A stretch of DNA of 64,000 nucleotides, taken from positions 186,001 through 250,000 of the forward strand of contig JASJOS010000014.1 of the NCBI GenBank assembly GCA_030068525.1, given 5' to 3'. The notes beneath the pieces are model-generated. The model saw only the letters and a list, made by a program, of their open reading frames with translations. It did not search any database and had not been told where the DNA came from. The translations under genes and the position numbers were made by a program. The DNA comes from Xanthocytophaga flava. GTDB taxonomy: Bacteria > Bacteroidota > Bacteroidia > Cytophagales > 172606-1. This document shows positions 1,825 through 23,314 of the stretch, one piece after another; positions within the stretch are counted from its first letter, which is position 1, and each line of letters starts with the position of its first letter.

Positions 1825-2346
1825 TTACCGTTTCCAAACTTGCTTAAAGTACTTCTCATAGCCAAACGGATCGCGCCACTCGATGTTGTGCTCTGGAATA
1901 CCTAGTTGTTTGAGCCAGGTGGGGACAAAGAAGCTCGGACAACCTTTGTTGTCAAACTGGTTATGTCCGGCAATCTTGACATTGGGAGCATAGCCTAATA
2001 CTTCACCGATAATGTCTAGCATGGTCGAGATCTGCTGAGGGGTACGGCTGTCTAATGGGGCTTTGTGGGAAGAGTCCAGTCCGCCTACATAGCACAGGTG
2101 TCTGGAAATGGAATTGATGCCTGCTACCCCGTTTGTAATCTCAAAAGAATCAATAATCTGGTCGTTGTTGTGTTTGACGAACTGGTGACGCGAGCCGTCC
2201 AACAGGATCAGATCCGAATAGCCGACTTGCTTCCAGCCGTTGCCATAGGGTTTAGGTTTGGTGTGCCAGCGTTTCACATCGTCAGGGGAGATCCAGCGTC
2301 CGGCGGGTGTGGCGGTGCAGTGTATAATCAGGTATTGGAATTTCAT
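1825..2346 (-). CDS. N-acetylmuramoyl-L-alanine amidase (T7 lysozyme/PGRP-like)
   Basis: A zinc amidase of 173 residues that should cut the bond between N-acetylmuramic acid and L-alanine in peptidoglycan. The fold's zinc ligands are visible: His9 in LIIHCTAT, and His128 and Cys136 in AGHNQFDNKGCPSF. The segment SRHLCYVGGLD is typical of Amidase_2 proteins. There is no signal peptide, as in phage endolysins that depend on a holin. The start at 2346 begins right at the conserved first beta strand; a longer frame exists but adds unlike sequence. Upstream in the same direction are two small membrane proteins and a coiled-coil protein, which gives the group the look of a phage or tailocin lysis cassette. 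The 3' end of this gene is duplicated at 559-606. Confidence 0.85.
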   Translation of the reverse strand: MKFQYLIIHCTATPAGRWISPDDVKRWHTKPKPYGNGWKQVGYSDLILLDGSRHQFVKHNNDQIIDSFEITNGVAGINSISRHLCYVGGLDSSHKAPLDSRTPQQISTMLDIIGEVLGYAPNVKIAGHNQFDNKGCPSFFVPTWLKQLGIPEHNIEWRDPFGYEKYFKQVWKR

Positions 2347-2449
2347 AGTCATAGAGATAAATGTATGGGTTAAGGAAAGAAAGGATGGGGTTGGTGCAAT
2401 CCTCGCCAAGGCAGCCTGTCCCGCTACAGCGGGATGGCATGCTTCTGTG

Positions 2450-2635
2450 TTATTTAGGGTCTTTCATGGAGAAGAACCCGACTGTTGAAATAAAGGCCAG
2501 CAGCGAAACGAACGACTGTGTATCGATTCTGTTAGCCAGCCAGAGAATATATCCTGAGAAGGTGAATAAACCCAGGGTTGAGGTTTTCCAGTTGTTGAGC
2601 ACAAACTGGATGTAATCGTATATTGATTTTGCCAT
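2450..2635 (-). CDS. Small membrane protein, holin-like
   Basis: A protein of 61 residues with two hydrophobic segments (about residues 18-34 and 41-58) joined by a short polar turn (NRIDTQ). The N-terminus is charged (MAKSIYDYIQ). Size and topology fit a two-helix class II holin, which would let the downstream amidase reach the cell wall. No family motif can be read, so the call rests on topology and on its place 103 bp upstream of the amidase. Confidence 0.55.
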   Translation of the reverse strand: MAKSIYDYIQFVLNNWKTSTLGLFTFSGYILWLANRIDTQSFVSLLAFISTVGFFSMKDPK

Positions 2636-2737
2636 AGGGGTTTAAGGGTTGGATGATTGAAAAATGTAGGGGTGATCACGTCAATGCGTAATAGGTTGAA
2701 TGACAGTCCTGCCAATCGAAGTTTTAACTCTCTTCCT

Positions 2738-2849
2738 GTCCTCCTGAAAGGATCTCTTGACAAATAGAGCTTTCTTTGGTTTGTGAGAGAAAGAATAATC
2801 TCCAGTCGGAAAGGCCTCCGGTCTTGCCACGAGTTCCTTTCAGGAAGAC
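2738..2849. mobile_element. MITE-like repeat, copy A
   Basis: A 112-bp non-coding unit bounded by inverted ends: GTCCTCCTGAAAGGA at 2738 and the complement of GTCTTCCTGAAAGGAA at 2849. The left part includes TTGACAAATAGAGC, the right part GCCTCCGGTCTTGCCAC. Copies with the same ends and internal blocks lie at 25454-25583 (inverted) and 31246-31358. It fills most of the gap between the two small membrane-protein genes and encodes nothing. Confidence 0.7.
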
Positions 2850-2929
2850 AAAAAAGAGAATGTCTTTACAGGGAACAGGAAAATAGACAATCTCTTATAG
2901 TGACATCTTCTGCACCAATTTCGGGTGAT

Positions 2930-3184
2930 TCACGGACCTTTACACGTATCCACAACCTGAAACACAGGCGCATAGGTAAAGCTCCTGACATGCTTGATCT
3001 TCTCTACATCCAGCGGTTGCACCGGATGGGCTGCGACCTGTTTGGCTACGATTTGCTCGATGTGGGTATAATCTATCACCTCACAGGCGTAGACCTCATC
3101 AGGATTGAGCCTGTGCTCTGTAAAGATGCCTACAGCCAAACCCAGCACAAAGCATAGAGCTGCCAATAGAATACGTATAGTCAT
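2930..3184 (-). CDS. Small membrane-anchored protein of the lysis-like group
   Basis: A protein of 84 residues if started at MTIRILL; a Met four codons upstream is possible. One N-terminal hydrophobic helix (about residues 3-21) is followed by a polar domain of ~60 residues with three cysteines (YACEVIDY, and DTC near the C-terminus). The layout, a single anchor followed by a short soluble domain between a coiled-coil gene and a holin-like gene, recalls phage spanin or Rz-like subunits, but no sequence signature supports that. Function unknown. Confidence 0.5.
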   Translation of the reverse strand: MTIRILLAALCFVLGLAVGIFTEHRLNPDEVYACEVIDYTHIEQIVAKQVAAHPVQPLDVEKIKHVRSFTYAPVFQVVDTCKGP

Positions 3185-3243
3185 GAGTGGATTCAATGGG
3201 TTAGTGAAACGAATAGGTAAACTACGCTGAGGCCTGAAAGAAA

Positions 3244-3272
3244 GAAGCAGTAGCCAGGTGGTCTACTGCTTC
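3244..3272 (-). terminator. Hairpin after the coiled-coil gene
   Basis: GAAGCAGTAG (3244-3253) and CTACTGCTTC (3263-3272) form a perfect 10-bp stem. On the leftward strand it is followed by TTTCTTTC, so partial termination about 30 nt after the coiled-coil gene stop is plausible. Confidence 0.6.
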
Positions 3273-3302
3273 CAGGTGGCTGCCTCTCTGCTAGTGGGTA
3301 GA

Positions 3303-3719
3303 CTAAGCGGGTAGAGTAGCCTTGTGTGTGGTGATAGAAGACATCGAGCCATCAATCACAGACAGGCGTTGCTCGATCTCGTCCAGCTGCGATTCGTAGA
3401 GAATGACCGCTGTGGTACCGTATTGCAACTTGCGTTGCTCAGCTGTGAACAGCTTGTACTCTGCCTTCACTTTGCGCGTCTCCATCTCGGTCTTGGTAGA
3501 ACCTTCGGGCAATACAGCGATGATGGCTGTCAGTGAGTCTACTTCGGCTGTGGCAGAGGCTAGCGTTGCTTCGATGTCAGAAGCCCGGTCGGAGGCATTG
3601 TCTCGGCTACGGGTTAGCGAGATTTGTTTGTACTCCAGTTCCCCTTTCAGGTCGCTCAGATCGTCGAGTACTTTGTCACAATCTGCTTTGGATGTCAATA
3701 AGGTTAGCGTTAATGCCAT
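3303..3719 (-). CDS. Coiled-coil protein of the lysis-like group
   Basis: A protein of 138 residues from MALTLTLLTS. Nearly all of it is predicted helix with heptad-like spacing of leucine and isoleucine (for example LDDLSDLKGELEYKQ, SDIEATLASATAEVDSL and LDEIEQRLSVIDGSM), so a long coiled coil is likely. There is no signal peptide. It is the first gene of the leftward lysis-like group, and the palindromic operator-like element at 3817-3855 lies about 100 bp upstream. It might be a tail or tape-like fragment or a structural helper; I cannot name a family. The start is the Met nearest the conserved-looking composition; an upstream in-frame Met adds 12 residues. Confidence 0.55.
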   Translation of the reverse strand: MALTLTLLTSKADCDKVLDDLSDLKGELEYKQISLTRSRDNASDRASDIEATLASATAEVDSLTAIIAVLPEGSTKTEMETRKVKAEYKLFTAEQRKLQYGTTAVILYESQLDEIEQRLSVIDGSMSSITTHKATLPA

Positions 3720-3816
3720 AAATGTATAAGTAGTTGAATAGTGAAACCTAATCACCAGTCAGTGTCCGGACTACTTGCTGATTGACACTACAAATATCGG
3801 CATTAAACACACACGT

Positions 3817-3855
3817 TTTTGAGCGTAGTTTTGATTATCAGAACTACGCTCAAAA
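3817..3855. promoter_or_regulatory. Palindromic operator-like element upstream of the lysis-like operon
   Basis: TTTTGAGCGTAGTT (3817-3830) and AACTACGCTCAAAA (3842-3855) are perfect 14-bp inverted arms separated by 11 nt. The half-site TGAGCGTAGTT differs by one base from TGAGCATAGTT (complement of 15705-15715) in the operator cluster beside the XRE gene. The rest of 3720-4191 is AT-rich, holds the divergent promoters and contains no believable gene. Confidence 0.6.
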
Positions 3856-4191
3856 TAGGGGTTTGACTTACTTTTGGTTGGTTTTGGTTACTATATGTGT
3901 TTTGAAGATTGAAAGGTATGAACTTTTGCTTTGAAGATGGTTTATTGATTTTATAGGTATTATCAATACAAAAATACTCAAAAAATACGGGGAAAATACC
4001 CTCTTTATAATATTGTTTGTTTAATGTTTTTAATAAACATTGCATTATGTAAATTGAAAATATGATTATTTCTTTGTGTTTGATTGGTTTTTTTACAAAA
4101 TTAGTAGGAGGTAATATAGAATTTATACTGTTTTATTTATAAAGTTCTCTTAATTCTTATTTGAGAACTCTATCTTATTTGATCAATATTC

Positions 4192-5031
4192 ATGAATTTT
4201 AAATTTTTGAATCTCATAGTTTATCAAAAACAACAATTAAATAGTTTAGTTGGCTTATGTGGTGGCTATGAATTAAATGAATGGAGATATAAACAATTCG
4301 CTGAGTGGTTGTTTGACTATCATCTTTTAGATTTTGCTTTAAAATATTCAGAATATAAAGACATTGATTTTACAACAGCCGCGAAAAAGCTTAGAACGGC
4401 GGCAAGGATTATCTTTCAAACTGAGAATCCACGAAGAGGAGAGTTTGGGGAGCTGCTTTTACATGGAGTAATAAAGGAAGCATTCAATACTACACCAGCG
4501 ATAACTAAGATTTATTTTAAAGATGGACCTAATGAAACAGTAAAAGGCTTTGATGCAGTTCATGTTGTAGCAAACGATAACAACTTGGAATTATGGCTTG
4601 GAGAGGTGAAATTTTATAATGACTTCCATACTGCTGTTTCTCATGTTGTAACAGAAATACAGGATCATTTGCAAAAAGATTATTTACGAAATGAGTTTTT
4701 AGCTATTAATAACAAATTAGATAATACATTTCCTCATTATGAAAAATTAAGAAAACTTTTAGACACTAATACTTCTTTAGACCAGATTTTTGACGCGATT
4801 TGTATTCCTGTATTATTAACTTATGATTCAACTATTGTTAAAAAACACAATAAACTATCAGAACAATATACAACTGAGTTGAGAGAGGAATTAATAGCAT
4901 ATGATCTGCATTTTTGGAAAAAGCTTGGTTCATGTCAAGTTAAAGTTCATTTATTCTTGGTACCATTAGAAGATAAAGCGAAACTTTTTGAAACATTATT
5001 GGAGAAATTAAAATTATGGCAGAACATCTAA
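4192..5031 (+). CDS. hamA: Hachiman defence nuclease subunit HamA (DUF1837)
   Basis: A protein of 279 residues of the DUF1837/HamA family, the nuclease half of Hachiman anti-phage defence. A PD-(D/E)XK-like core is readable: acidic residues in RRGEFGELLLH (Glu84, Glu87), Asp121 in VKGFDAVHV, and Glu138/Lys140 in LWLGEVKFY. In characterised Hachiman systems HamA is held inactive by HamB and degrades DNA once released by damaged or phage DNA. It is soluble, without membrane segments. Its last 16 bases overlap the start of hamB, so translation is probably coupled. The gene is clearly more AT-rich than the flanking phage-like genes, a sign of separate acquisition. Identification is based on motif pattern and the partner gene. 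Confidence 0.88.
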   Translation: MNFKFLNLIVYQKQQLNSLVGLCGGYELNEWRYKQFAEWLFDYHLLDFALKYSEYKDIDFTTAAKKLRTAARIIFQTENPRRGEFGELLLHGVIKEAFNTTPAITKIYFKDGPNETVKGFDAVHVVANDNNLELWLGEVKFYNDFHTAVSHVVTEIQDHLQKDYLRNEFLAINNKLDNTFPHYEKLRKLLDTNTSLDQIFDAICIPVLLTYDSTIVKKHNKLSEQYTTELREELIAYDLHFWKKLGSCQVKVHLFLVPLEDKAKLFETLLEKLKLWQNI

Positions 5032-7160
5032 GTTTGAATCAAGTCAATGACCTATTAACAAGTGAGCAAACTGATATAACAGATCCCTTCCTAATTTTAA
5101 AAACTATAGCTTCCAACTTAAATCAACAGAACTCGGCTCTCCTTCAGGAAGTAATATTAAGAATACTTGAGAAAAGAAGCTTCTTTAGCAATTATGAACA
5201 CCTTGTTAATGATTTTGCAAGACACATAGGGCTATTTCCATATCTAAAGAGGGAGGATCTAAATATTGCCGATCAAATTGCATATGAATATCATAGACCA
5301 GATGGCATAAGAGAAAATAATATCGTTTTTCATCGAGTACAAGCCCAGGTTTATTTTAAACTTTTGGAAGGAAAAAATGTAATCTTAAGTGCACCCACAA
5401 GTTTTGGAAAAAGTCTAATTATTGATACATTAATTGCTTCTGAAAAATATAAAAACATCGTTATTGTCCTACCAACAATTGCTTTAATCGATGAGACAAG
5501 ACGCCGCTTGATAAGGTTTAAAGATAGCTATAAAGTAATTACCCATACCTCTCAGCGCATAGAAGACAAAAATATATTTATCTTAACTCAAGAGCGAGTT
5601 ATTGAAATAATAAATAACATTCATATAGACTTCTTTGTAATTGATGAATTTTATAAAATTCAACCGTCATCAAACGACAAAGAAAGAAGTTTGATTCTTA
5701 ATCATGCATTTTATAAACTTTTAAAAGATAGGGGACAATTTTACTTATTAGGCCCTGACATAAGGGCTGTAGATACAAATATCTTTCCTGGAAATAGCGA
5801 AGTTATTTTCATTAAATCGGATTACAAGACTGTTGTAACTGAGAAAGAATTAGTAAAAAAAGGGGGCCTTGATCCGTTAGAAAGGCTATTAGAGTTATGT
5901 AAAAGTTTGCAAGGCGAACCTACTCTTATCTATTGTGCTTCTCCTAAAAGTGCTAATAAAGTATCTAAGTTCTTATTAGATTCTGGTCATTTTCAGAAAG
6001 ATAATAAGAATGACGAAGCTGTTAGGTGGCTAAAAAAAGAATATCATCCCAAATGGTATCTTCCCAAAGCACTTGAACATGGTATTGGAATTCATCATGG
6101 TAGGATTCCTAGATCAATAGCACAATATGCTGTTAGGTCTTTCAATGATGAAAAAATTAACTTTTTGCTTTGTACAAGCACATTAATTGAAGGTGTTAAT
6201 ACTAAAGCAAAAAATGTAATAATATTCGATAACAAGGTTGCAAGAGAAAAATTTGATTATTTTACATTTAATAATATATGTGGAAGATCCGGTAGAATGT
6301 TTCAACATTTTATTGGCAAAGTATTCTTATTTCATGAGCCTCCACAAGAAGAATTACCTATGGTTGATTTTCCGATTTTTAGCCAGTTGGATGACGTATC
6401 AGAAAAGCTATTAATACAACTAGAGGAAGAAGATCTTACTGATAACTCTAAAGATAGATTAAAATCTATTAGAAATAATAACAGTCTGAGTTTAAAAACA
6501 ATTCGGTTAAATTCAAATATTGACCCATTTAATCAAATTAAATTAGCAGAAGAGATTAATAATAAGTTACAATACTATGCCACAATGCTTAACTGGAATG
6601 GCTTTCCTCCAAAATATGAGCATTTAGAATTAATTTGTAACTTGATATGGAACTACTTAGTTGATCATGGAAAAGGAGTTGGAGGAGTAAAATCTGCAAG
6701 TCAACTTACGTTTAAAATACATCTTCTTACTAAACATAAAGAATTGATACCTATAATAAATTCTGAGTTAAAAAATAAGACAGATGCAGAAGAAATAAAT
6801 GAAAGTATTGAAACAGTACTTGAGTTTACGAGGTATTGGGCACAATATAATTTTCCAAAATATTTACTAGCATTAGATAGAATACAAAGAGAAGTGTTAT
6901 CAAAAAATGGGTTTGCGACAGGTGATTATTCTTACTTCGCTTCTCAGTTAGAATGCTTGTTTACTAATCCCCTTTTTATCGCTTTAGATGAGTATGGTAT
7001 TCCAATTCAAACAAGTAAAAGATTGAGTCCCTACTTAAATTTAACAAATAGCTCTAATTTAGATGACTTACTTAAACAACTAAAGGCTCTAAACCTATCA
7101 GCTTTAAAAATTTCAATTTTTGAGAAAGATCTTATAAGCGACTCTAGAAGGTTCTTCTAA
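5016..7160 (+). CDS. hamB: Hachiman defence helicase HamB
   Basis: A superfamily 2 helicase of 714 residues. The Walker A motif is APTSFGKS (residues 126-133), the DExx box reads DEFYK (210-214), and the motif VI region is CGRSGRM (about 422-428), which resembles Ski2-like helicases. An all-helical C-terminal part of about 250 residues follows. In Hachiman, HamB surveys DNA and restrains the HamA nuclease. It overlaps hamA by 16 nt. No frameshift or missing core motif is seen, so the pair looks intact. A channel-like gene follows after 103 bp on the same strand. Confidence 0.88.
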   Translation: MAEHLSLNQVNDLLTSEQTDITDPFLILKTIASNLNQQNSALLQEVILRILEKRSFFSNYEHLVNDFARHIGLFPYLKREDLNIADQIAYEYHRPDGIRENNIVFHRVQAQVYFKLLEGKNVILSAPTSFGKSLIIDTLIASEKYKNIVIVLPTIALIDETRRRLIRFKDSYKVITHTSQRIEDKNIFILTQERVIEIINNIHIDFFVIDEFYKIQPSSNDKERSLILNHAFYKLLKDRGQFYLLGPDIRAVDTNIFPGNSEVIFIKSDYKTVVTEKELVKKGGLDPLERLLELCKSLQGEPTLIYCASPKSANKVSKFLLDSGHFQKDNKNDEAVRWLKKEYHPKWYLPKALEHGIGIHHGRIPRSIAQYAVRSFNDEKINFLLCTSTLIEGVNTKAKNVIIFDNKVAREKFDYFTFNNICGRSGRMFQHFIGKVFLFHEPPQEELPMVDFPIFSQLDDVSEKLLIQLEEEDLTDNSKDRLKSIRNNNSLSLKTIRLNSNIDPFNQIKLAEEINNKLQYYATMLNWNGFPPKYEHLELICNLIWNYLVDHGKGVGGVKSASQLTFKIHLLTKHKELIPIINSELKNKTDAEEINESIETVLEFTRYWAQYNFPKYLLALDRIQREVLSKNGFATGDYSYFASQLECLFTNPLFIALDEYGIPIQTSKRLSPYLNLTNSSNLDDLLKQLKALNLSALKISIFEKDLISDSRRFF

Positions 7161-10700: not shown

Positions 10701-11063
10701 TCATCTTTTGGAAATGGAAAGAATTGTGATTGTATAATAGGTGTAAACAGCTGGGGACATTTGTGGCTCGGAGGCTTTCAACTGCCCATCAAAAAGGACA
10801 GGAATGCTATCCTGCGTTTTGTAATTTAATTGTTCAAACTGCTCATATTCAGGATTACACACCTGATAAAAACCAAAAATGGATCCCGCTTGCGTAACAA
10901 GGCTTATGTTATTGTTAGCTTTGTTATAGTAAAGTACACCTGGAACGTCTCTAACCGTTGATAATACAGGGCTATCACAACCATATTCAGGCTGTTTTTC
11001 TTCCTTTTTACAACCGCATAGGTACAAGGCTAATGCTACAATAGTAACTATTTTTATTTTCAT
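10701..11063 (-). CDS. Small lipoprotein
   Basis: A protein of 120 residues. A short signal peptide (MKIKIVTIVALALYLCGC) is followed by a KKEEK linker, typical of lipoproteins in Bacteroidota. The mature part of about 100 residues has two cysteines (YGCDSP and QVCNPEYEQ) and no motif I recognise. It stands alone between XRE 3'-end fragments (b) and (c). Confidence 0.65.
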   Translation of the reverse strand: MKIKIVTIVALALYLCGCKKEEKQPEYGCDSPVLSTVRDVPGVLYYNKANNNISLVTQAGSIFGFYQVCNPEYEQFEQLNYKTQDSIPVLFDGQLKASEPQMSPAVYTYYTITILSISKR

Positions 11064-14704: not shown

Positions 14705-15304
14705 ATGTCGTCTGATTCGTTCTATAATCCTGCCATTCCTCACCGTCGATCTATCCGGTTGTCAGATTATGATTATAGTCTGGCAGGTTTGTATTTTGTG
14801 ACCATCTGTGTAAAGGATAGGCAATGTTTGTTTGGACACGTTAACGGTGGGCAGATGGTGTTGAATGAGGCGGGGGAGATAGCCCGTCAAGAATGGGAAA
14901 AATCAGTCGAAATCCGGCAGGGAATTGCATTGCATGAATTCATCATCATGCCCAATCACATGCATGGCATTGTGGAAATTATAGATACAAAATGTAGGGG
15001 CGACTGGCAGGTCGCCCAGGCCACTACTATAGGCTCGGATCAAACCCATCGTTCGGCTGGGAACCAGGGCGATCTGCCAATCGCCCCTACAAGGTTAAAT
15101 CCGAAATCGTTGGGTGCTATGATCGGTGGGTATAAAGCCAGTGTAACTAAAAAGGTTAATGATATTCGGCAAGCATCAGAGTCTGTTTGGCAGCGCAATT
15201 ATTACGAACACATCATTCGCAATGCTCATTCCCATCAGCAGATTTCCGAATACATCACCACCAACCCCCAGCGATGGGAACAGGATGCCTTGTATGCGTT
15301 ATAA
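14705..15304 (+). CDS. REP-associated tyrosine transposase (RAYT)
   Basis: A protein of 199 residues of the Y1/IS200-like HUH superfamily. The metal-binding HxH is in IMPNHMHGIVE (His85, His87), and the likely catalytic Tyr is in WQRNYYEHIIR (about residues 163-168). The N-terminal SIRLSDYDYSLAGLYFVTIC is typical of RAYTs, which process REP palindromes rather than moving themselves as insertion sequences. Residues ~97-129 are encoded by a REP pair inserted without breaking the frame; without it the protein would have the usual ~165 residues. REP arrays of the same sequence lie at 16.3-16.6 and 19.6-20.0 kb. The gene is convergent with the XRE gene and overlaps its stop by 6 nt. Confidence 0.88.
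   Translation: MSSDSFYNPAIPHRRSIRLSDYDYSLAGLYFVTICVKDRQCLFGHVNGGQMVLNEAGEIARQEWEKSVEIRQGIALHEFIIMPNHMHGIVEIIDTKCRGDWQVAQATTIGSDQTHRSAGNQGDLPIAPTRLNPKSLGAMIGGYKASVTKKVNDIRQASESVWQRNYYEHIIRNAHSHQQISEYITTNPQRWEQDALYAL
14993..15091 (+). repeat. Inverted REP pair inside the RAYT gene
   Basis: It begins TGTAGGGGCGACTGGCAGG and ends with the mirrored form GATCTGCCAATCGCCCCTAC. The unit is 99 bp (33 codons) and keeps the reading frame. The two palindromes are in opposite orientation, as in a BIME. Confidence 0.85.
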
Positions 15305-15532
15305 AGTATTAATTTTCACCTCCCCACTCCCGGTCATGATCCAATTCAGGTTCACATCATAAGTCACATGCAGGCTGTAGAGAAAGAAGCAGGAGGGGAG
15401 GCTCTGGCCTTTTTCCAGCTGGGAGATGTTGCTTTGGCCGAGTCCCATGCGCTGCACAAATTCGCGTTGAGGGAGTTTGGCTATTTCGGTGCGTACATAT
15501 AAAATGCGTTGTCCTATCTTTTGTAAATCCAT
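15299..15532 (-). CDS. Small XRE-family helix-turn-helix repressor
   Basis: A protein of 77 residues. Residues ~6-45 form an XRE helix-turn-helix (IGQRILYVRTEI ... REFVQRMGLGQSNISQLEKG), and the end YDVNLNWIMTGSGE is the usual C-terminal motif of this small family. It probably represses genes of the element. Six copies of a TGCGCATAGTT-type half-site lie directly upstream (15572-15771), which suggests autoregulation, and a matching palindrome lies upstream of the lysis-like operon. Three clear and one or two weaker 3' fragments of the same gene lie to its left. It is the only copy with an intact DNA-binding domain here. Confidence 0.8.
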   Translation of the reverse strand: MDLQKIGQRILYVRTEIAKLPQREFVQRMGLGQSNISQLEKGQSLPSCFFLYSLHVTYDVNLNWIMTGSGEVKINTL

Positions 15533-15571
15533 TGGGTTTGTAAAGTTATGGGTTGTGAATAGTTGGTAATT

Positions 15572-15771
15572 CTGCGCATAGTTAGGGTCAAATTGATTGT
15601 TGAACTGAACTATGCGCAGCGTGAGTCTTGCCGTGAGTTATGCGCAGGGGTGAGACTGGGTAGTCGGTCTGCGGTTTGCTTGGGTCAGGCTCGGTTTTAT
15701 CGTGAACTATGCTCATGGTTGTCACTGCGCATAGTTCACGGCAGACAGCTTGCTGCGCATACCTATGCGCA
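15572..15771. promoter_or_regulatory. Operator cluster upstream of the XRE gene
   Basis: Six related sites: TGCGCATAGTT at 15573-15583, AACTATGCGCA at 15608-15618, GTGAGTTATGCGCA at 15633-15646, CGTGAACTATGCTCA at 15701-15715, TGCGCATAGTTCACG at 15726-15740, and the palindrome TGCGCATACCTATGCGCA at 15754-15771. The sites are arranged as inverted pairs; the pair 15701-15740 is a 40-bp palindrome. No gene is credible in 15533-15812. The likely ligand is the adjacent XRE protein. Confidence 0.7.
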
Positions 15772-15812
15772 AGGGTGTAAAGATATGGCAGGACAGCGCC
15801 TGTCAGGAGCTT

Positions 15813-16262
15813 TTACCTGAGCCGGAAGCCATAGCTTTGCTGGTCTATTATCCACTTATCAAGCACTGTAAATGCCAGCTTGAAAGCGGCCGTTTCTGCA
15901 TCATATCGGTTGAGATAGTATTCGGTACAGGCCAGCTCTTCCGGATCTGTGAGTTGGTAGTTAGCATTGGCGTCTTGCCCGATCTGGAAGGTGTAGACGG
16001 CCTGTTTGTCCTTCAGCGTGCCTGTTACATTAATCACCAATCCTTTAGACTGAAAGAAGTCATAGAGCATGTTGGTGTAGCGTTTGTTTCTTCCGGATAG
16101 TGCCAACTTAATTGAGGACTTTTGAGGGTCGGGATGTTGTATGCCCCAACTTAGAAAATCCAGATAGGCCAGGCTGTAGCTGTGCGTCACTTTGCGCCAG
16201 AAGGTGGTGGATTCTTTGTGACTTTCTTCGTATTGATCGTATGCGTTTGTGTCGAAATACAT
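15813..16262 (-). CDS. Unrecognised protein of the phage-like module
   Basis: A protein of 149 residues starting MYFDTNAYDQYEES. It appears soluble and alpha/beta, with no signal peptide or membrane segment. The segment LALSGRNKRYTNMLYDFFQSKGLVINVTG and the end TVLDKWIIDQQSYGFRL show no motif I know. An open frame continues upstream of the chosen start but there runs through REP palindromes, so it is not coding. It is the last gene of the leftward replication module before the operator cluster. Confidence 0.65.
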   Translation of the reverse strand: MYFDTNAYDQYEESHKESTTFWRKVTHSYSLAYLDFLSWGIQHPDPQKSSIKLALSGRNKRYTNMLYDFFQSKGLVINVTGTLKDKQAVYTFQIGQDANANYQLTDPEELACTEYYLNRYDAETAAFKLAFTVLDKWIIDQQSYGFRLR

Positions 16263-16338
16263 ATGGTGTTGTTGGGTTTTAGGGTGAATAATGTGTTGTT
16301 GTTGGTATTTGGATAATGGTGTTTTGTGTGATTGTATT

Positions 16339-16648
16339 TGTAGGGGCGCACCTATGTGTGCGCCCGGTTTCCTACAGGCTATGATTAGATTAATCCGAAC
16401 CAATGTAGGGGCGACTGGCGGTCGCCCTGGTTCCCGCAAACAATGCCTGTAACAATCGGCCAACGTAGGGGCGGGGCTTGCCCCCGCCCGGTTTCCGAAC
16501 GCGAACGAGCAGGTTTATCAGACGCCATCGGATTGTCACAAACATAGCCTGCGACGATCTGGGCGCACACAGGTGCGCCCCTATATTGGGTCGGAATAAT
16601 CCTAATCGTTCGGTGGGGAATCTGGGCAGGGGCGAGCCCTGCCCCTAC
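16339..16648. repeat. REP array, three forward then two inverted
   Basis: Palindromic units start with TGTAGGGGCG or TAGGGGCG at ~16340, 16404 and 16466. Mirrored units ending CGCCCCTA or GCCCCTACA follow at ~16582 and 16648. Spacing is about 62-66 bp. Spacers carry related arms such as TCGGAATAATCCTAATCGTT. This fills the gap between the nuclease gene and its downstream neighbour. Stem sequences vary while complementarity is kept (GCGCACCTATGTGTGCGC, GCGACTGGCGGTCGC, GCGGGGCTTGCCCCCGC). Confidence 0.85.
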
Positions 16649-16692
16649 AGGGTTCGGATTGTCATCATAGATTGTGTTTGATTGTATTTTTT

Positions 16693-17040: not shown

Positions 17041-17082
17041 AGTATATAGTATAGTTTAAATAGTAAATGACTGATTATAAGG

Positions 17083-17358
17083 TTAGTTACACTATCTACA
17101 CTAGGTTACACTAGCGGTTACACTTCTAAGTGGCTGTAAATGAGGTCGGTTACACTGGTTACACTTGTTTCTTTTATACACGTGTATATATAATATATAT
17201 AGTAGTATAGAATAGTGGATATATAGTGTGCTATACTCTCCCAGGAATTTTACGAACCCCAAAACAAGTGTATCCAGTGTAACTTGATTCATTATCAAAG
17301 ACTTAAAGTGTAACCTGAAGTGTAACTATGTGTAACCGACAAACTGCATGTGTAACCC
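17083..17358. other. Putative replication origin: iterons flanking an AT-rich core
   Basis: GTTACACT occurs at 17086, 17105, 17117, 17149 and 17158, with a variant at 17095. The inverted form AGTGTAAC occurs at 17276, 17307 and 17319, with one-mismatch variants at 17267 (AGTGTATC), 17329 and 17349 (TGTGTAAC). The two sets face each other across a central segment of about 100 bp whose part 17171-17236 is almost pure A/T. The element abuts the VapE-type primase-helicase gene. The arrangement matches satellite-phage origins of the SaPI type; a cluster of regulator sites is the alternative. Confidence 0.65.
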
Positions 17359-17390
17359 GAACCCGGATTTTGGCTGGTTAGAAGGGGTAC

Positions 17391-19586
17391 TTATTTGAGA
17401 CTATGACGTTTGTCTTCGTCACACAACACCCAGAATCCCCGAATGGATTTGCCGGAAAGCTTGATCGGCTTGCCCTTGTTATTGTCAAAGCCCAGCGATT
17501 TCATAGCCCTGCCAATCTTATCCGGACTCAGGTTTTTATAGGTACTGTAGATTTGAAGAAAATGACCAATGGTGGTCGATGAGACAAAAGTCGATCCGGA
17601 AGCCTGTGGAGTACAAGGAGTAAAGAACTTGATAATTAGCTCTTCCTCCTTTGACCGCAGGCGGTATTCTTCGGCTACCTCATTGATGCGTTGCATTTCT
17701 TCGTCAGTCATATCCGTGTCAACACCCTGGATGTACAGGTGATAGGCTTCTTTCCAGAGTTCATATTTGTCTACCGCATTGTATATGTCCCAGTTGATGC
17801 CTTCTGTCACCTCAATCACCCCAAAGCGGCGATTTCCGGTTGTGTCTTCCAGAAAGTCTACCTCATTGGCACAGCCCGCAAAGTTGACCAGGCGCGGCTT
17901 GTTCTGGCCCCGTCTGTCGTAGTTGTAGCGCATAAACACCGTAGGCTGGGTAATCATGGATTTCATGCGTTTGTAGCCCATCTTCACAATGCTGTTAAAC
18001 TCCTCGTCAATCGCTATCCAGGACGAGCTCATCACCAGGTCATCCTGGTAGGCGCGTTCTCCGAACACATGCGGGGTTATCAGTTCGGTGCGGCAATACA
18101 GATTATCGGGCAGCAGTTGTTTGATCCATGCACTTTTTCCAGCTTTCTGCTTGCCTGCCAGCACCAGCATCACACAGCTATGCACATCAAATGCCGATCC
18201 TACACAACCTACCAGCCACTTGCGCAGCACTGTAGTGGCAAAGTCATGACCATGCTTGCAGCACAACGATTCGGCCAGACGCCGGATATGGCCTGTAGTA
18301 GCACTACCCATGCCTTCGAAAAAGTCTCTCAACGGATTAAACTCTACAATACCTGACGACTTCATATAATCAAAGACCATGTCTTTGCCAATCGGCTGCA
18401 AAATCTTGCGGGAGGCATCAATGGTGATATCAATCAGATCTCTTTCGGTCTGGCGTATATAGTTGCGGTACACTTCCTGATTGAGTACATTGCGTTTGAG
18501 ATCAGGCTGATATTCTTTGAAATACTTTTCGAGTCGTACCCAAAGCGGAATACGGTCTTCGTCTATATCCTGAGGGGTTGCATATACCTGCTCTACTATA
18601 GGCCGCGCCATCTCCGGATCAATGCCATGGACCTGTTGCAATACATTGACAGTTCCCTCCACGGTATTGCTTCCGTTCTTTCCCAGTTTGGCCGACTGTA
18701 CAATGGCCTTGGTTTGTTCGGAAATAATGCTGATGCCATACTGTTTGCAATACCACAGAAAGGTGGCAATGGTGACCTTCTTTACGCTGGTAGCATTGTG
18801 TCTGAGGCAGGCAGAGTACTGCTGATCAGCCTTTTTTGCATCATACAGTGACGAAAACTGACTCACTGCCAGAAAGCGGTCACGGCCTATTTCGCCAAAG
18901 TAATCAGCCAGAGCAAAGCCAATGGAGCACCACTGGTGGTAGTTGCCTGTAATGTCGATTTGCCGGCTTTGTATCTGATCAAATACATGGTCTATGTCAT
19001 GACTGCCAAAGAAGATATTGCGCGTATCAGGCTTTTTCTTTTCCTTTTCAGGATAGAGTTTAAACACCTTAGACTCTTCCATCACCCGTAGGTCCGGATC
19101 ATAGCTGACAAACCGCAGACGAGACACATTGCAACCGCTGGGGTCTACGATCAGTCCATAGGTCTGGAAATAATACTGCGACAAGCCATCAAAGGCCAGC
19201 TTGTGTTTTTTGCCATCCATGTGTACTATCACACACAAGCCTTTGCCCCGGCAGCTGACAAACTGGGCATAGGTATATGGATCTTGCTCAAGCAAGGCTT
19301 TGACTTTGTCCAGATCGGTTACATCGTCCAGGTCAATGGCTATAAAGTCCGAATGCTGCTGCAGGTGAGCGTCTGACTTGCCGTCTGTAAACACTCCGGA
19401 AATGGTTACGGCAGGCAATTTCTCTTTGAGCTTTTTCTGGGTGTCTTCATTATTACAGGTTCGTACTTTCTGCACCGCATCTTTCCAGGTGCCGTTTTGT
19501 ATATTTTCCAGGAAGGTTCGAAGCGGGTATTCTTGCCCGGTTTTCGCGTATGCGTGAGGAAATAAGGTTATGGTATGGTCTTTCAT
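17391..19586 (-). CDS. VirE-N / VapE-type primase-helicase
   Basis: A protein of 731 residues. Residues ~1-190 form the BT4734/VirE-N domain (AIDLDDVTDLDKV, VSRLRFVSYDPDL), a primase-like fold. A PriCT-like helical segment (~215-280) follows, then the VapE/VirE P-loop domain (~350-640) with Walker A AGKQKAGKS near residue 476, IDEEFNS as Walker B, and FAGCANEVDFLEDTTGNRR as sensor region. Proteins of this design start replication of phages and satellites in Bacteroidota. The iteron region lies just downstream. A REP array separates it from the upstream VirE-N paralogue. Confidence 0.85.
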   Translation of the reverse strand: MKDHTITLFPHAYAKTGQEYPLRTFLENIQNGTWKDAVQKVRTCNNEDTQKKLKEKLPAVTISGVFTDGKSDAHLQQHSDFIAIDLDDVTDLDKVKALLEQDPYTYAQFVSCRGKGLCVIVHMDGKKHKLAFDGLSQYYFQTYGLIVDPSGCNVSRLRFVSYDPDLRVMEESKVFKLYPEKEKKKPDTRNIFFGSHDIDHVFDQIQSRQIDITGNYHQWCSIGFALADYFGEIGRDRFLAVSQFSSLYDAKKADQQYSACLRHNATSVKKVTIATFLWYCKQYGISIISEQTKAIVQSAKLGKNGSNTVEGTVNVLQQVHGIDPEMARPIVEQVYATPQDIDEDRIPLWVRLEKYFKEYQPDLKRNVLNQEVYRNYIRQTERDLIDITIDASRKILQPIGKDMVFDYMKSSGIVEFNPLRDFFEGMGSATTGHIRRLAESLCCKHGHDFATTVLRKWLVGCVGSAFDVHSCVMLVLAGKQKAGKSAWIKQLLPDNLYCRTELITPHVFGERAYQDDLVMSSSWIAIDEEFNSIVKMGYKRMKSMITQPTVFMRYNYDRRGQNKPRLVNFAGCANEVDFLEDTTGNRRFGVIEVTEGINWDIYNAVDKYELWKEAYHLYIQGVDTDMTDEEMQRINEVAEEYRLRSKEEELIIKFFTPCTPQASGSTFVSSTTIGHFLQIYSTYKNLSPDKIGRAMKSLGFDNNKGKPIKLSGKSIRGFWVLCDEDKRHSLK

Positions 19587-19628
19587 GTGTTTTCGTAAGT
19601 TGGTTGATTTTATGAGTTGTTATTTTTC

Positions 19629-20003
19629 TGTAGGGGCGCACCCATGTGTGCGCCCGGTTTCCCGCAGACCGCGTTTGTGGTATTCCGACATTGTAGGGGC
19701 GATTGGCAGATCGCCCACGTTCCTTACCGAACGATTAGGATTATTCCGACACTTGTAGGGGCGACTGGCGGTCGCCCTGGTTCCATTCGCGAAGGATCAG
19801 GTTATCAGACAACCATTTCGGATTATACCATGCCGTGTCTGTGCCGATCTGGGCGCACACATAGGTGCGCCCCTACAGGGTCGGAATAATCCTAATCGTT
19901 CGGTAAGGAACGTGGGCGATCTGCCAATCGCCCCTACAAGTGTCGGATTTATACAGACATTCGCTGCGACGAGCCGGGCGAACACGCGGGTTCGCCCCTA
20001 CAT
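19629..20003. repeat. REP array, three forward and three inverted, mirror symmetric
   Basis: Forward units begin at ~19629, 19692 and 19754 (TGTAGGGGCG...); mirrored units end at ~19876, 19937 and 20002 (...CGCCCCTACA). The period is about 62 bp. Spacers TTACCGAACGATTAGGATTA on the left are repeated in inverted form on the right, so the whole 375-bp block is a large imperfect palindrome between the two VirE-N genes. The stems differ in sequence but stay self-complementary. Confidence 0.88.
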
Positions 20004-20021
20004 TTTCGATGATTTACAAAT

Positions 20022-20606
20022 TCAGACACAGAACACCTCTGCCTCTGGATTGCCTGTCAGACCCGGGTCATACGTCACATACCGGAATCGTGTGACAAAC
20101 TGATCCGATGGATCTGTGATAATGCCGTAGATGCCCTCGTAATACTCGCTCAGCGCCTGATACGCCTTCATATGGTCACTAGCTGGAATGCGGACTACCA
20201 CTGTCAGTGCCTTGCTGGAATAGTTCTCAAATACCGCATAGGTATATTTATCCAGAGCCAAAATCTGTTTGCCTCGCTGTAGATCCCGGAAGCCCTCTAC
20301 ATCCATTGCGATAAAGCCCGAATGTTGGATAAGTGATAATCCGTTTGTATGTATAGAGAACAAACCAGAGATAGCGACTATGGGAAGAGAATTGCACGAA
20401 TCGGCCTCTGACACTCCCTGACGGATCGGTTCTAGCATTTCGCGCCATAATCCATCCTGGATATGTGACAGGTAAAGATCTACTGAGTAGGGTTGTGTGG
20501 TTATCGCATCGATAGACGAAAAGAAACTAATGGTTGACATATAGGTAGTAAGAGAATAAGAGGTAGAGAATAGTTTTTGCACCTGTGTATCTGCATGATT
20601 ATCCAT
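20022..20606 (-). CDS. Free-standing VirE-N (BT4734-like) domain protein
   Basis: A protein of 194 residues whose part from residue 23 aligns with the first ~190 residues of the large primase-helicase: IQDGLWREML, VAISGLFSIHTNGLSLIQHS, FIAMDVEGF, TRFRYVTYDPGL. It lacks PriCT and ATPase domains. The acidic IDLDD of the paralogue reads MDVEG here, so the primase site may be inactive. The start at 20606 overlaps the helicase stop by 8 nt (ATGGATAA), favouring coupled translation; MSTISFF at 20540 is the alternative start where homology begins. It could be a replication accessory subunit or the relic of a split or duplicated primase. Confidence 0.75.
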   Translation of the reverse strand: MDNHADTQVQKLFSTSYSLTTYMSTISFFSSIDAITTQPYSVDLYLSHIQDGLWREMLEPIRQGVSEADSCNSLPIVAISGLFSIHTNGLSLIQHSGFIAMDVEGFRDLQRGKQILALDKYTYAVFENYSSKALTVVVRIPASDHMKAYQALSEYYEGIYGIITDPSDQFVTRFRYVTYDPGLTGNPEAEVFCV

Positions 20607-22218
20607 ATAAGGTCGATTTCAGCCTTGGCGTGTTAAAATCGCGTATAATGCGTTTGTCTTCCGTTTGGGTATATTCTTGCAGGCGTTTGTCCACCCAGCC
20701 AGGCCGATAGCCTTTGAGCTGAGCCAACTCTTCCAGGAGTGGGCGTGGGTTATCGCGTTCCATGATGCGGTGTATAATCCAGTTTGCCTTGTAAGGCGTG
20801 TTTGTGTAGCTGTTGCCTATCTGAGCCCGCTGGATCAGCTCGGTGACACTCATCTCTGACCAGCTTTTTTGCTTGAGATAGCTCCAGTCGATGGAGACTT
20901 CTTCTGTATGAACATGTTCAGATTCACGCTGCTCCTGAGAGAGGCGTTCAAACTCAAAACCACAATGTGGACAGGTAACACAGCTTAAGGCAATGATCGA
21001 CTCACACTCCGGACACTTTTTAGTAGGAGCAATCTCAAGGGTTTTCTGAGCCTTGCCCGTCCAGAACAGATAACTCCAGTCACGCGGCTCATGCCACAAA
21101 CCATGCTCATCCAGATTATTGCCCATATCAATGATGATAAACTCTCGCTTACTGGCCGTAACCCGTGCCCCACGCCCACACATTTGCAGGAATAGGGGCA
21201 GAGACTGAGTAGCCCTGTTGAGGATAATACACTCCACACTGGGTTCGTCAAATCCGGTAGTGAGAATGCCACAGTTGACCAGAATCGCTCCCTCTGTGCC
21301 AGAGAACCATCGTAGAATTGCCTGACGTTCGGCATCGGGAGTTTCGGAGGTAACATACCGCACCTGTGCATGCACCTGACTAAAAGCCCGAGCGGTAAAG
21401 ACCGTATGCGGGATGTTGACACAAAAGATCAGCGTCTTTTTACCCTGAGCATGCTTTTGCCAGTTGGTCACACAACCGTGATAGAGTTTGGGTGTATGGA
21501 AGTCCTGATACAGCTCATTATTCTTATATTCCCCATCATAACCAGTAGAGGCCGTGATTTCCATAGGTACCGCAAAATACCTGGGCCTGGATAAGTAGCC
21601 TGCCTCAATCAACAGGTGTATTTCTGTACCTACTACAATGTCCTCAAAGTAATGGTTGAGAGGTTCAAACTTACTGGCAGCAATAGGCGTAGCTGTAGCC
21701 CCAATCATAGGCAGATCCGGATGCTGGTCTATCACTTTGCGGAAATTGCCTTTATGCGCTTCGTCTATAATGATCAGCTTCAGATCCGGCAATGACCAGC
21801 CTTTCTTGATTCGGCGGTAATACGTCTCTACCATGGCCACCACTACTTTATTGCGGGGCATGTGCTTGGTTTCTGCATTCAGTATACCTGCCTCTAATCC
21901 TGCTTTGTGAAGCGTTACAGCCGCCTGATGCAAGAGTTCAATGCGATCCGTCAGAATCAGTACACGCCCTCGGCTAATGCCTTCTAAGGCACGTCTGGTA
22001 ATTTCGGCAAAGGTGACGGTCTTGCCCGCGCCAGTAGGTAGGCACAGAATTACCCGTTTCTTGCCTGACAGATGTTTTTCTGCCAGTTTCACCATACTAT
22101 CCTGCTGATAGCCTCTCAGGGCCAATGCAGGCGTTACAGACACTGCATGTACATTTGGTAAGGGCAAAGCTTCGCCATTCACGCAATTGGCGTGATCTAA
22201 GAACAGATCCTGTGGCAT
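20599..22218 (-). CDS. DEAD/DEAH-box superfamily 2 helicase, phage type
   Basis: A protein of 539 residues. A Q-like LRGYQQD precedes Walker A LPTGAGKT (60-67), followed by DEAH in LIIIDEAHKG, a SAT-like GATATP, and motif VI in QMCGRGARV. A C-terminal CxxC...CxxC zinc-ribbon-like pattern (CPECES ... CPHCGF) follows, then ~100 helical residues. It matches the Res/UvsW-like helicases of Bacteroidota prophages, which remodel forks and recombination intermediates. It starts 4 nt before the stop region of the HTH gene, indicating one leftward operon. Confidence 0.85.
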   Translation of the reverse strand: MPQDLFLDHANCVNGEALPLPNVHAVSVTPALALRGYQQDSMVKLAEKHLSGKKRVILCLPTGAGKTVTFAEITRRALEGISRGRVLILTDRIELLHQAAVTLHKAGLEAGILNAETKHMPRNKVVVAMVETYYRRIKKGWSLPDLKLIIIDEAHKGNFRKVIDQHPDLPMIGATATPIAASKFEPLNHYFEDIVVGTEIHLLIEAGYLSRPRYFAVPMEITASTGYDGEYKNNELYQDFHTPKLYHGCVTNWQKHAQGKKTLIFCVNIPHTVFTARAFSQVHAQVRYVTSETPDAERQAILRWFSGTEGAILVNCGILTTGFDEPSVECIILNRATQSLPLFLQMCGRGARVTASKREFIIIDMGNNLDEHGLWHEPRDWSYLFWTGKAQKTLEIAPTKKCPECESIIALSCVTCPHCGFEFERLSQEQRESEHVHTEEVSIDWSYLKQKSWSEMSVTELIQRAQIGNSYTNTPYKANWIIHRIMERDNPRPLLEELAQLKGYRPGWVDKRLQEYTQTEDKRIIRDFNTPRLKSTLYG

Positions 22219-22221
22219 GGA

Positions 22222-22578
22222 TTAGCGGGTTGAGGTGGCTGACTGAGACTCCTCTTTCTGATCTGGCTTATCAGACAGATGGCGTGCTACTTCCGTTTCC
22301 AGTTCCTGAAGTGTCTGATGTTTGCCATCCATAATCCAGGCTTCCAGTTCGGCCCGGCTGAAATACAGCTTGCGTCCCCGCTTCATATGCGGAATGCTGC
22401 CGGCACATACCAGATTGTAAATAGTTGACTGAGCCAGGCCTGTAATCTGCATGGCTAGTTCCACACCGCCAAGCTGCTTGTTTGCTGGGGCGGGAAGAAT
22501 GGTAATCGATTGTAATTCAAGTAAAAGAGCCTCCACCCGGACTAGCCGTGTCAGAATGTCTTCAAAAGGATTAAACAT
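22222..22578 (-). CDS. MerR/excisionase-like helix-turn-helix protein
   Basis: A protein of 118 residues from MFNPFEDIL. After a short helical N-terminus, residues ~40-95 form a HTH_17-type winged helix (LAMQITGLAQSTIYNLVCAG, then IPHMKRGRKLYFSRAELEAWI), followed by a charged tail. Such proteins serve as excisionases or as regulators at the head of mobile-element replication modules. It is the first gene of the leftward operon. The upstream open frame to 22662 is hydrophobic and unlikely to be translated. Confidence 0.8.
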   Translation of the reverse strand: MFNPFEDILTRLVRVEALLLELQSITILPAPANKQLGGVELAMQITGLAQSTIYNLVCAGSIPHMKRGRKLYFSRAELEAWIMDGKHQTLQELETEVARHLSDKPDQKEESQSATSTR

Positions 22579-23314
22579 GTAGGGAATAAAGGTTTGGGTA
22601 AAAAACTGATTACACCAGAACCCCATGAGGAAGAATACCCGGAAACAATGTGCAAAAGCCACTGCTACTATAAAAAAGGTTAGTACAATAGGAAAGTAGA
22701 ATATCCTTTCGTTTTTCGATGAATAGTCGTAAAAAAGTAGTTATGGATATTTACTTTTATTTACTTTTTATTACCTTTGTTTATGATTTGTTGCCTTCTG
22801 TAGCAAAAGCAAAGCCCCACTGTCACATAGTAGTTAACAGATTCAGTTTATACCTCTACAGAATCAAACAAAGCAGTTTACTTTTTGCATTGTTTCGTTT
22901 AAAAATAAAAAACAGCCTTTCTGCATCGCAGAATAGTTGTTCACTAAGTCCAGCTGTAGTTCGGCGGCCAAACTTCGCTACACTGGCGTGGGTAGGAATT
23001 CCTCTGGGAGTTCCTATTTTTATTTCTATAAAGTAAGGCTGTAAATTTAGTAAATCTCACCTTTATACCCAAGAGGCTGTCTTATATTTTATGTCTTTTT
23101 CGCATATTTTTTTATTGTAATTATATTTTTAGGAATGCTTGCTTTTTACACTTTTTTGACTGGATTATATTTCTGTGTCAAATATTATTATCCGGAAAAC
23201 TAATAAAGGGAATAATTGATATAAGGCTGTATAAGGCAAGGTTATAGTGGTGTAATAGGAGGGTACATTGGATAAAAAAAGTGGCTGTAAAAAGAGGCAG
23301 AATAGGTAACATAC
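22579..23314. other. Intergenic region without a convincing gene
   Basis: It contains the promoter region of the HTH-led operon on the left, then about 600 bp of AT-rich sequence. A possible small hairpin TAGGAA ... TTCCTA near 22992-23015 is followed by TTTTTATTT. A frame on the plus strand (22719-23036) has no homology I recognise and low-complexity composition. Nothing else is visible. Confidence 0.5.

Follow-up and report, generated by a model that had tools for sequence, protein, structure and literature searches.

The facing iteron array beside vapE in Xanthocytophaga flava is very probably the replication origin of an integrated module resembling a phage satellite, judging by sequence. 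Within the window, the whole stretch of 64,000 nucleotides analysed here, the element and its surroundings comprise the following features.

1825..4045, minus strand: second conserved block of the module family, with a phage-type amidase (1825-2409) and small ORFs
4192..7160, plus strand: probable cargo, Hachiman-like HamA and HamB
15299..15532, minus strand: small HTH regulator (HTH_19 / phage repressor type)
15570..15795 (limits approximate), no strand assigned: operator-like repeat array of GTGAACTATGCGCA-type units upstream of the small HTH gene
15813..16463, minus strand: module protein without family match, core of ~149 aa
16693..17040, minus strand: VRR-NUC-like / Holliday-junction-resolvase-like protein, best match phrog_824
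17051..17362, minus strand (the VapE-to-VRR direction): whole origin-like element, class 1 (GTTACACT), from profile match R1, alignment A1
17072, 17135 and 17288 (span 17072..17297), no strand assigned: spacer motifs of TGATNATGA type
17086, 17105, 17117, 17149 and 17158 (span 17086..17165), plus strand: left iterons, exact GTTACACT
17166..17240: AT-rich core, GC 0.25
17276, 17307 and 17319 (span 17267..17356), minus strand: right iterons, exact AGTGTAAC
17391..19586, minus strand: VapE primase-helicase (family matches BT4734_N, PriCT_2 and VapE)
20022..20606, minus strand: small BT4734_N protein, a second primase-like N-domain
20599..22218, minus strand: ResIII/DEAD helicase of phage type (phrog_16)
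22222..22662, minus strand: HTH_17 / AlpA-excisionase-like regulator

The element measures ~312 bp (G000:C5:203051-203362, G000 being the own genome), as delimited by a 244-bit match to profile R1, whose eight sequences include the window copy itself. The sequence-only reading had placed it at 17083-17358, which stands except that the profile match is somewhat longer. Its iterons were found as described, with five exact GTTACACT copies and one weaker variant (CTACACT, 17096-17102) on the left, and three exact AGTGTAAC copies and three near-matches (17267, 17329 and 17349, one mismatch each) on the right. The stretch between them is indeed AT-rich, but not almost pure A/T as had been claimed, since GC is 0.25 in the core, the presumed melting region, and 0.31 over the wider 17166-17275. 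From the outside inward, outer iterons 10-20 bp apart give way to a ~31-bp spacer containing a motif of TGATNATGA type; two iterons at a distance of 9 bp come next, then the AT-rich core, and beyond it the mirror image, with small differences from this order between element copies. Exact GTTACACT/AGTGTAAC copies number 10 in the whole window on both strands, eight of them facing each other across the core, whereas 100 dinucleotide shuffles of the window gave 1.9 on average and never more than 5. In 17083-17358, the commonest 8-mer occurs 8 times, and at most 4 times in 1000 dinucleotide shuffles.

The primase-helicase reported to adjoin the element was identified by family matches to VapE (E 1.2e-30), BT4734_N (1.5e-19) and PriCT_2 (4.4e-10), and its last ~70 residues have, by eye only, the look of a winged helix-turn-helix. 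On the minus strand, the module reads AlpA-like HTH, ResIII helicase, BT4734_N protein, VapE, element, VRR-NUC-like protein, family-less protein and small HTH regulator, so that the element sits between VapE and the VRR-NUC-like gene. The product of the latter gave no match to Pfam VRR_NUC; the annotated VRR-NUC protein of phage mumin6-1 likewise has phrog_824 as its best match. Comparison of VapE with its counterpart in G002, a genome of the same genus, gave a dN of 0.0067 and a dS of 0.0956 (dN/dS 0.07), and VapE is therefore under purifying selection that keeps it intact. Palindromic intergenic repeats of the form GTAGGGGCG...CGCCC, REP-like by eye, lie at ~16330-16660 and 19620-20010, and a Y1-transposase-like gene is found beside the module at 14705-15304 (Pfam E 1.2e-4, just under the cut-off).

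Among the ORFs scanned in module and cargo, none was recognised as a capsid or tail gene; one encodes a lysis-type amidase. The ends of the integrated element are not fixed. The HamA/HamB spot looks like a cargo site for defence genes because, in the related module L078, McrBC-type genes (3006-6088) occupy the matching place. This relative also has, next to its AlpA-like gene, a tyrosine integrase. No integrase was recognised in the scan of window ORFs, and the window module shares its right flank with the G002 counterpart module, next to which the matching sequence lies (G002:C8 119149-129347); the current mobility of the window module is therefore doubtful. Two further ORFs near the module, at 10701-11063 and 607-1707, gave weak family matches (Cor superinfection-exclusion family, E 5.9e-5; phage topoisomerase II large subunit, E 3.2e-11). 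A partial module with AlpA-like, helicase and BT4734_N genes, and neither VapE nor array, is present at L024 8178-10653.

Full-length VapE copies of the window family number three in G000 and four in G002. A search of relatives for the same layout after VapE, as the sequence-only reading had proposed, found a facing iteron array around an AT-rich core in the gap 3′ of VapE in all seven of these modules. Three are of the GTTACACT type, here class 1: the window, its G002 counterpart and G000:C62 (L021), whose array has 2 exact class 1 iterons and several one-base variants. The other four are of the GGGTAAG type, here class 2 (G000:C61, G002:C29 or L077, C8b and C6). In the G002 counterpart of the window origin (L075 10940-11161), we observed a 32-bp tandem duplication that includes one iteron.

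The two iteron types are associated with different helicase halves of VapE. In 60-base steps along L021 and L077, identity is 75-100% for the first ~335 VapE codons, falls to 38-68% for the remainder of VapE and through the array, and returns to 92-100% in the VRR gene; at the protein level, VapE identity drops from 85-100% to 25-60% at ~codon 335. This block of low identity, which coincides with the change of iteron class, shows that VapE codons ~336-731 and the origin were exchanged as one block. That helicase half, origin and iteron class changed together is the strongest indication that the iterons are read by the C-terminal half of VapE, and such recognition is how these comparisons are probably best read. 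Together with the layout found in all seven modules, it supports the SaPI/PICI-type origin that had been proposed for the window.

We also considered that specificity might reside in the C-terminal winged-helix-like segment alone, which identity comparison did not support. In that segment, distant VapEs with similar iterons are 26% (L177) and 23% (L184) identical to the window VapE, compared with 25-28% for class 2 VapEs and 25% for phages that have no array there. Since VapEs with similar iterons are no closer in this segment, the determinant could be narrowed to the C-terminal half and no further. A distant VapE in G000 (C60, L023 8201-8600) has its own AGGTTGA array at and after the stop codon; the AGGTTGA pair pattern has three matches at one G000 place and none in G002, so it is not dispersed.

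The C-terminal half of VapE, comprising an AAA+ helicase and the terminal winged-helix-like segment, would bind the facing iterons, the AT-rich core would melt, and VapE would load as helicase. Synthesis would then be started by the N-terminal primase half of VapE and the small BT4734_N protein, and the ResIII helicase and VRR-NUC-like protein may act in fork and branch processing. This one type of origin exists in several iteron specificities, and origin and VapE C-terminal half are exchanged as a single cassette.

Outside the genus, the association of VapE and array is found in part of the relatives. Among 59 genomes, 16 contain VapE relatives at E <= 0.001, the own genome included. Nine VapE loci from other genera of the order, in which the match covers the helicase half, were scanned, and four have an array directly 3′ of VapE with a count that none of 200 shuffles reaches: GTTACAGT-like iterons in L049 (6 copies), CTTACCC in L054 (11) and TACTACA in L056 (9) and L060 (12). 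No array follows VapE in L051, L053, L057, L059 and L066. Thirteen annotated phage and satellite records, hand-picked from the VapE match lists, were scanned over 450 bp after VapE (900 bp in mumin6-1). Arrays were found in four, namely mumin6-1, FPSV-S27, pippi8-1 and the satellite Javan429; the other nine gave none, BM127P2 among them being borderline (6/200 shuffles). The layout thus extends to wider relatives in these cases and is absent from the rest, and with five of nine loci and nine of thirteen records lacking it, the link between VapE and array is not universal.

Scans of contig collections added few relatives. The protein-pattern scan (A3) of genome contigs confirmed none, and the iteron-pattern scan of genome contigs returned four (L217-L220), none with five iterons in 320 bp and none matching any of four module proteins. 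In viral contigs, the VapE scan gave one short, weak relative (L171) and the class 2 iteron pattern no match. The class 1 and class 3 patterns were found in 42 viral contigs (3 and 39, respectively), a biased sample as it was picked by iteron pattern. Within this sample, three encode a VapE relative, and in 21 a stretch of 320 bp contains five or more iterons with up to one mismatch, in some of them all in the same orientation. In the viral contigs L177, L184 and L216, likewise picked by iteron pattern, the arrays lie at the VapE end.

According to PMC6092414, PICI origins lie 3′ of rep, always contain two iteron sets flanking an AT-rich region, and share this organisation with no other known bacterial replicon. 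By that definition the window element has two iteron sets around an AT-rich region, and it ends at 17362, directly 3′ of VapE, whose stop side is at 17391. Iterons varying between elements is a further likeness to PICI/SaPI elements as described in PMC6092414, and the helicase region of the window VapE is related to the solved chain 7pds_A ('Similar to D. nodosus vapE', E 2e-19). On the other hand, in the window, primase and helicase are fused with a BT4734_N domain, a VRR-NUC-like gene comes next, the copy has no recognised integrase, and gene-less copies are scattered over the genome.

In gene order, the Flavobacterium phages mumin6-1, FPSV-S27 and pippi8-1 resemble the window: VapE comes first, then an iteron array, then VRR-NUC. 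In mumin6-1, VapE and the array are separated by a nuclease gene, and FPSV-S27 has GTTACAC iterons. The arrays of these phages, too, appear to look like PICI origins in organisation. However, they are full tailed phages with terminase genes next door, and their VapE is only 25.5-28.9% identical to that of the window. In satellite P4, the alpha protein is a fused primase-helicase that acts on the satellite ori. The window module can be likened to it in having a fused primase-helicase on what is probably a satellite origin, a likeness at the level of general description.

Origin-like elements were also found in number away from any VapE. Sequence-only profiles R1 (class 1), R2 (class 2) and R3 (class 3, with GTTACAGT iterons, alignment A4) were run on eight genomes of the family, and each place was assigned to its best-scoring model; all copy counts are lower bounds. 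G000 contains at least 21 places (at least 6 class 1, 12 class 2 and 3 class 3) and G002 at least 26 (at least 9, 16 and 1, respectively), including the weak G000:C60:235983 and G002:C1:741671 (43 and 52 bits). Among these 47 or more places, seven adjoin a full-length VapE and one (G002:C28, L167) a decayed module, leaving at least 39 solo copies, at least 18 in G000 and 21 in G002. Searched by tblastn with 12 module proteins (~1.5 kb on each side, E <= 1e-3), none of 39 solo places gave a match, whereas all eight other places did. Since 39 of the 47 copies found are without VapE alongside, a different role for the array is also conceivable.

The ~20 gene-less sites per genome would probably still be targets of VapE in trans. 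It is a plausible, if tentative, reading that these origins, of at least three specificities and partly accompanied by repressor-operator arrays, are active targets of satellite or phage VapE proteins, serving either as miniature hyper-parasites replicated in trans or as chromosomal decoys by which the cell is protected. Among explanations for the solo copies, we favour non-autonomous elements served in trans, followed by decoys and then relics.

According to the first, which we hold to be a reasonable possibility short of a firm conclusion, the solo copies are non-autonomous miniature satellites with cis sites only, kept and spread by replication proteins that satellites or phages supply in trans. 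Such an origin would fit the finding, in two genomes, of at least 39 copies of a single ~300-bp unit that have none of the 12 module proteins within 1.5 kb, and the six other family genomes, in which no strong match was found among those listed (one weak class 2 match, G005, E 0.006). Presence and absence at corresponding sites also point in this direction: L123 (G000) has 537 bp where L165 in the other genome has none, and L093 (G002) has 374 bp where L161 has 14. In addition, class differs at two orthologous sites (L094, class 3, and L134, class 2; L104, class 3, and L081, class 1). L136 is partly occupied relative to L163, and for L085 and L095 only one of the two flanks could be matched. 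The right flank of L123 contains a different dispersed intergenic sequence, ~180 bp long, which recurs with 85-91% identity at about ten G002 places, in C23, C6, C16, C13 and C1 of that genome.

MITE-like elements are short, gene-less, dispersed, non-autonomous and carry inverted repeats. The solo copies resemble them in being short and gene-less with inverted repeats, and in having many intergenic copies, some in one genome only. They differ in that no clear target-site duplication was seen by eye at the two junctions read (L093/L161 and L123/L165), in that no transposase was assigned to them, and in that their repeats look like initiator iterons. The missing duplication also weighs against miniature satellites, as do the lack of an identified moving enzyme and the counterparts at the same G002 site of 17 of the 18 own-genome solo sites found, from which the spread of solo copies would be mostly old.

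Some solo copies lie close to a second kind of repeat. The array at 15570..15795 may act as an operator; upstream of the HTH gene in L021, L077 and L078, the corresponding units are of the GAATWMACCGCA type, ~28 bp apart, and those of the window and elsewhere are different. A pair pattern of ACCGCA type has 53 matches in G000, 50 in G002 and none in G001, G003 and G004. Matches lie within 1.5 kb of six of the 18 G000 solo origins found (five places), where ~0.2 would be expected by chance from 35 G000 clusters; a looser scan gave seven of 18. At the non-orthologous sites L092 and L104, class 3 origin, linker and ACCGCA array are 78% alike over 393 bp, a likeness from which it appears that some gene-less units carry two cis sites of a satellite, and which favours miniature satellites. 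The dispersed GAATWMACCGCA-unit repeat of G000 and G002 (35 G000 clusters; examples of the repeat are L092 1888-2110, L093 868-1088 and L161 1459-1679) matches the array upstream of the satellite HTH gene, and its clusters are mostly away from origin copies.

A rather less likely explanation is that the solo copies act as decoys: iteron arrays on the chromosome by which the initiator of an incoming satellite or phage is titrated. A decoy role would account for several specificities, for the change of class at fixed sites and for paired class 1 and class 2 copies. One genome does contain three classes, and copies of class 1 and class 2 are adjacent at C10:134705/134991 and not far apart at C10:4721/4172. 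Constraint on the iterons themselves points the same way: when iterons were defined in either member of a pair, the 14 orthologous solo pairs of like class differ at 24/548 iteron positions and at 333/3464 positions in the rest of the element (Fisher p 2e-5), or 14/439 and 212/2991 (p 0.0013) without two pairs that look replaced (L084/L083 and L131/L138). However, iterons differ no less than the flanking non-coding DNA, which is 89.6-98.8% identical in 13 of the 14 pairs, so that constraint is suggested and selection is not proven. The remaining flank, of L084/L083, is 52.6% identical, and L073 there has an insertion of nearly 1 kb. Also against decoys, seven class 1 solo copies have two exact iterons or fewer (L087, L088, L090, L091, L093, L095 and L108), and a limited search found no phage or satellite of the host with these iterons.

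Such degenerate copies would be more readily understood if the solo copies were relics of satellites stripped of all their genes, which we consider unlikely. Decayed modules do exist: at both L080 and L167, fragments of VapE are accompanied by an array that is truncated. Nevertheless, L167 and the seven intact modules all retain module-protein matches and none of the 39 solo copies does, while others among these keep many exact iterons (9 in L084 and L092, 8 in L127 and L122, 7 in L081; the window copy has 8). Least of all do we expect the array to be an operator or bidirectional promoter region and not an origin: iteron arrays can be operators, and a different repeat array precedes the HTH gene, but the 45 places examined as loci lie between genes in every orientation, convergent pairs included, which makes a regulatory role unlikely, the module array lies between two genes of the same direction, and its class switches with the helicase half of VapE.

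An origin of the satellite/phage type is in itself of a known kind. The present case stands out because initiator half and origin were exchanged together and, even more, because gene-less origins in three specificities are scattered over the genomes; no description of such scattered origins was found among titles and abstract openings in the open-licence literature. A probable PICI-type origin is hereby added from Cytophagales and tied to the replication module with VapE and VRR-NUC that Flavobacterium phages carry. The exchange that has occurred naturally between VapE C-terminal halves and origins may provide ready protein/origin pairs in which to study iteron recognition by initiators. Active solo origins, if that is what they are, would represent either satellites of a minimal kind or a form of chromosomal immunity in which origins serve as decoys.
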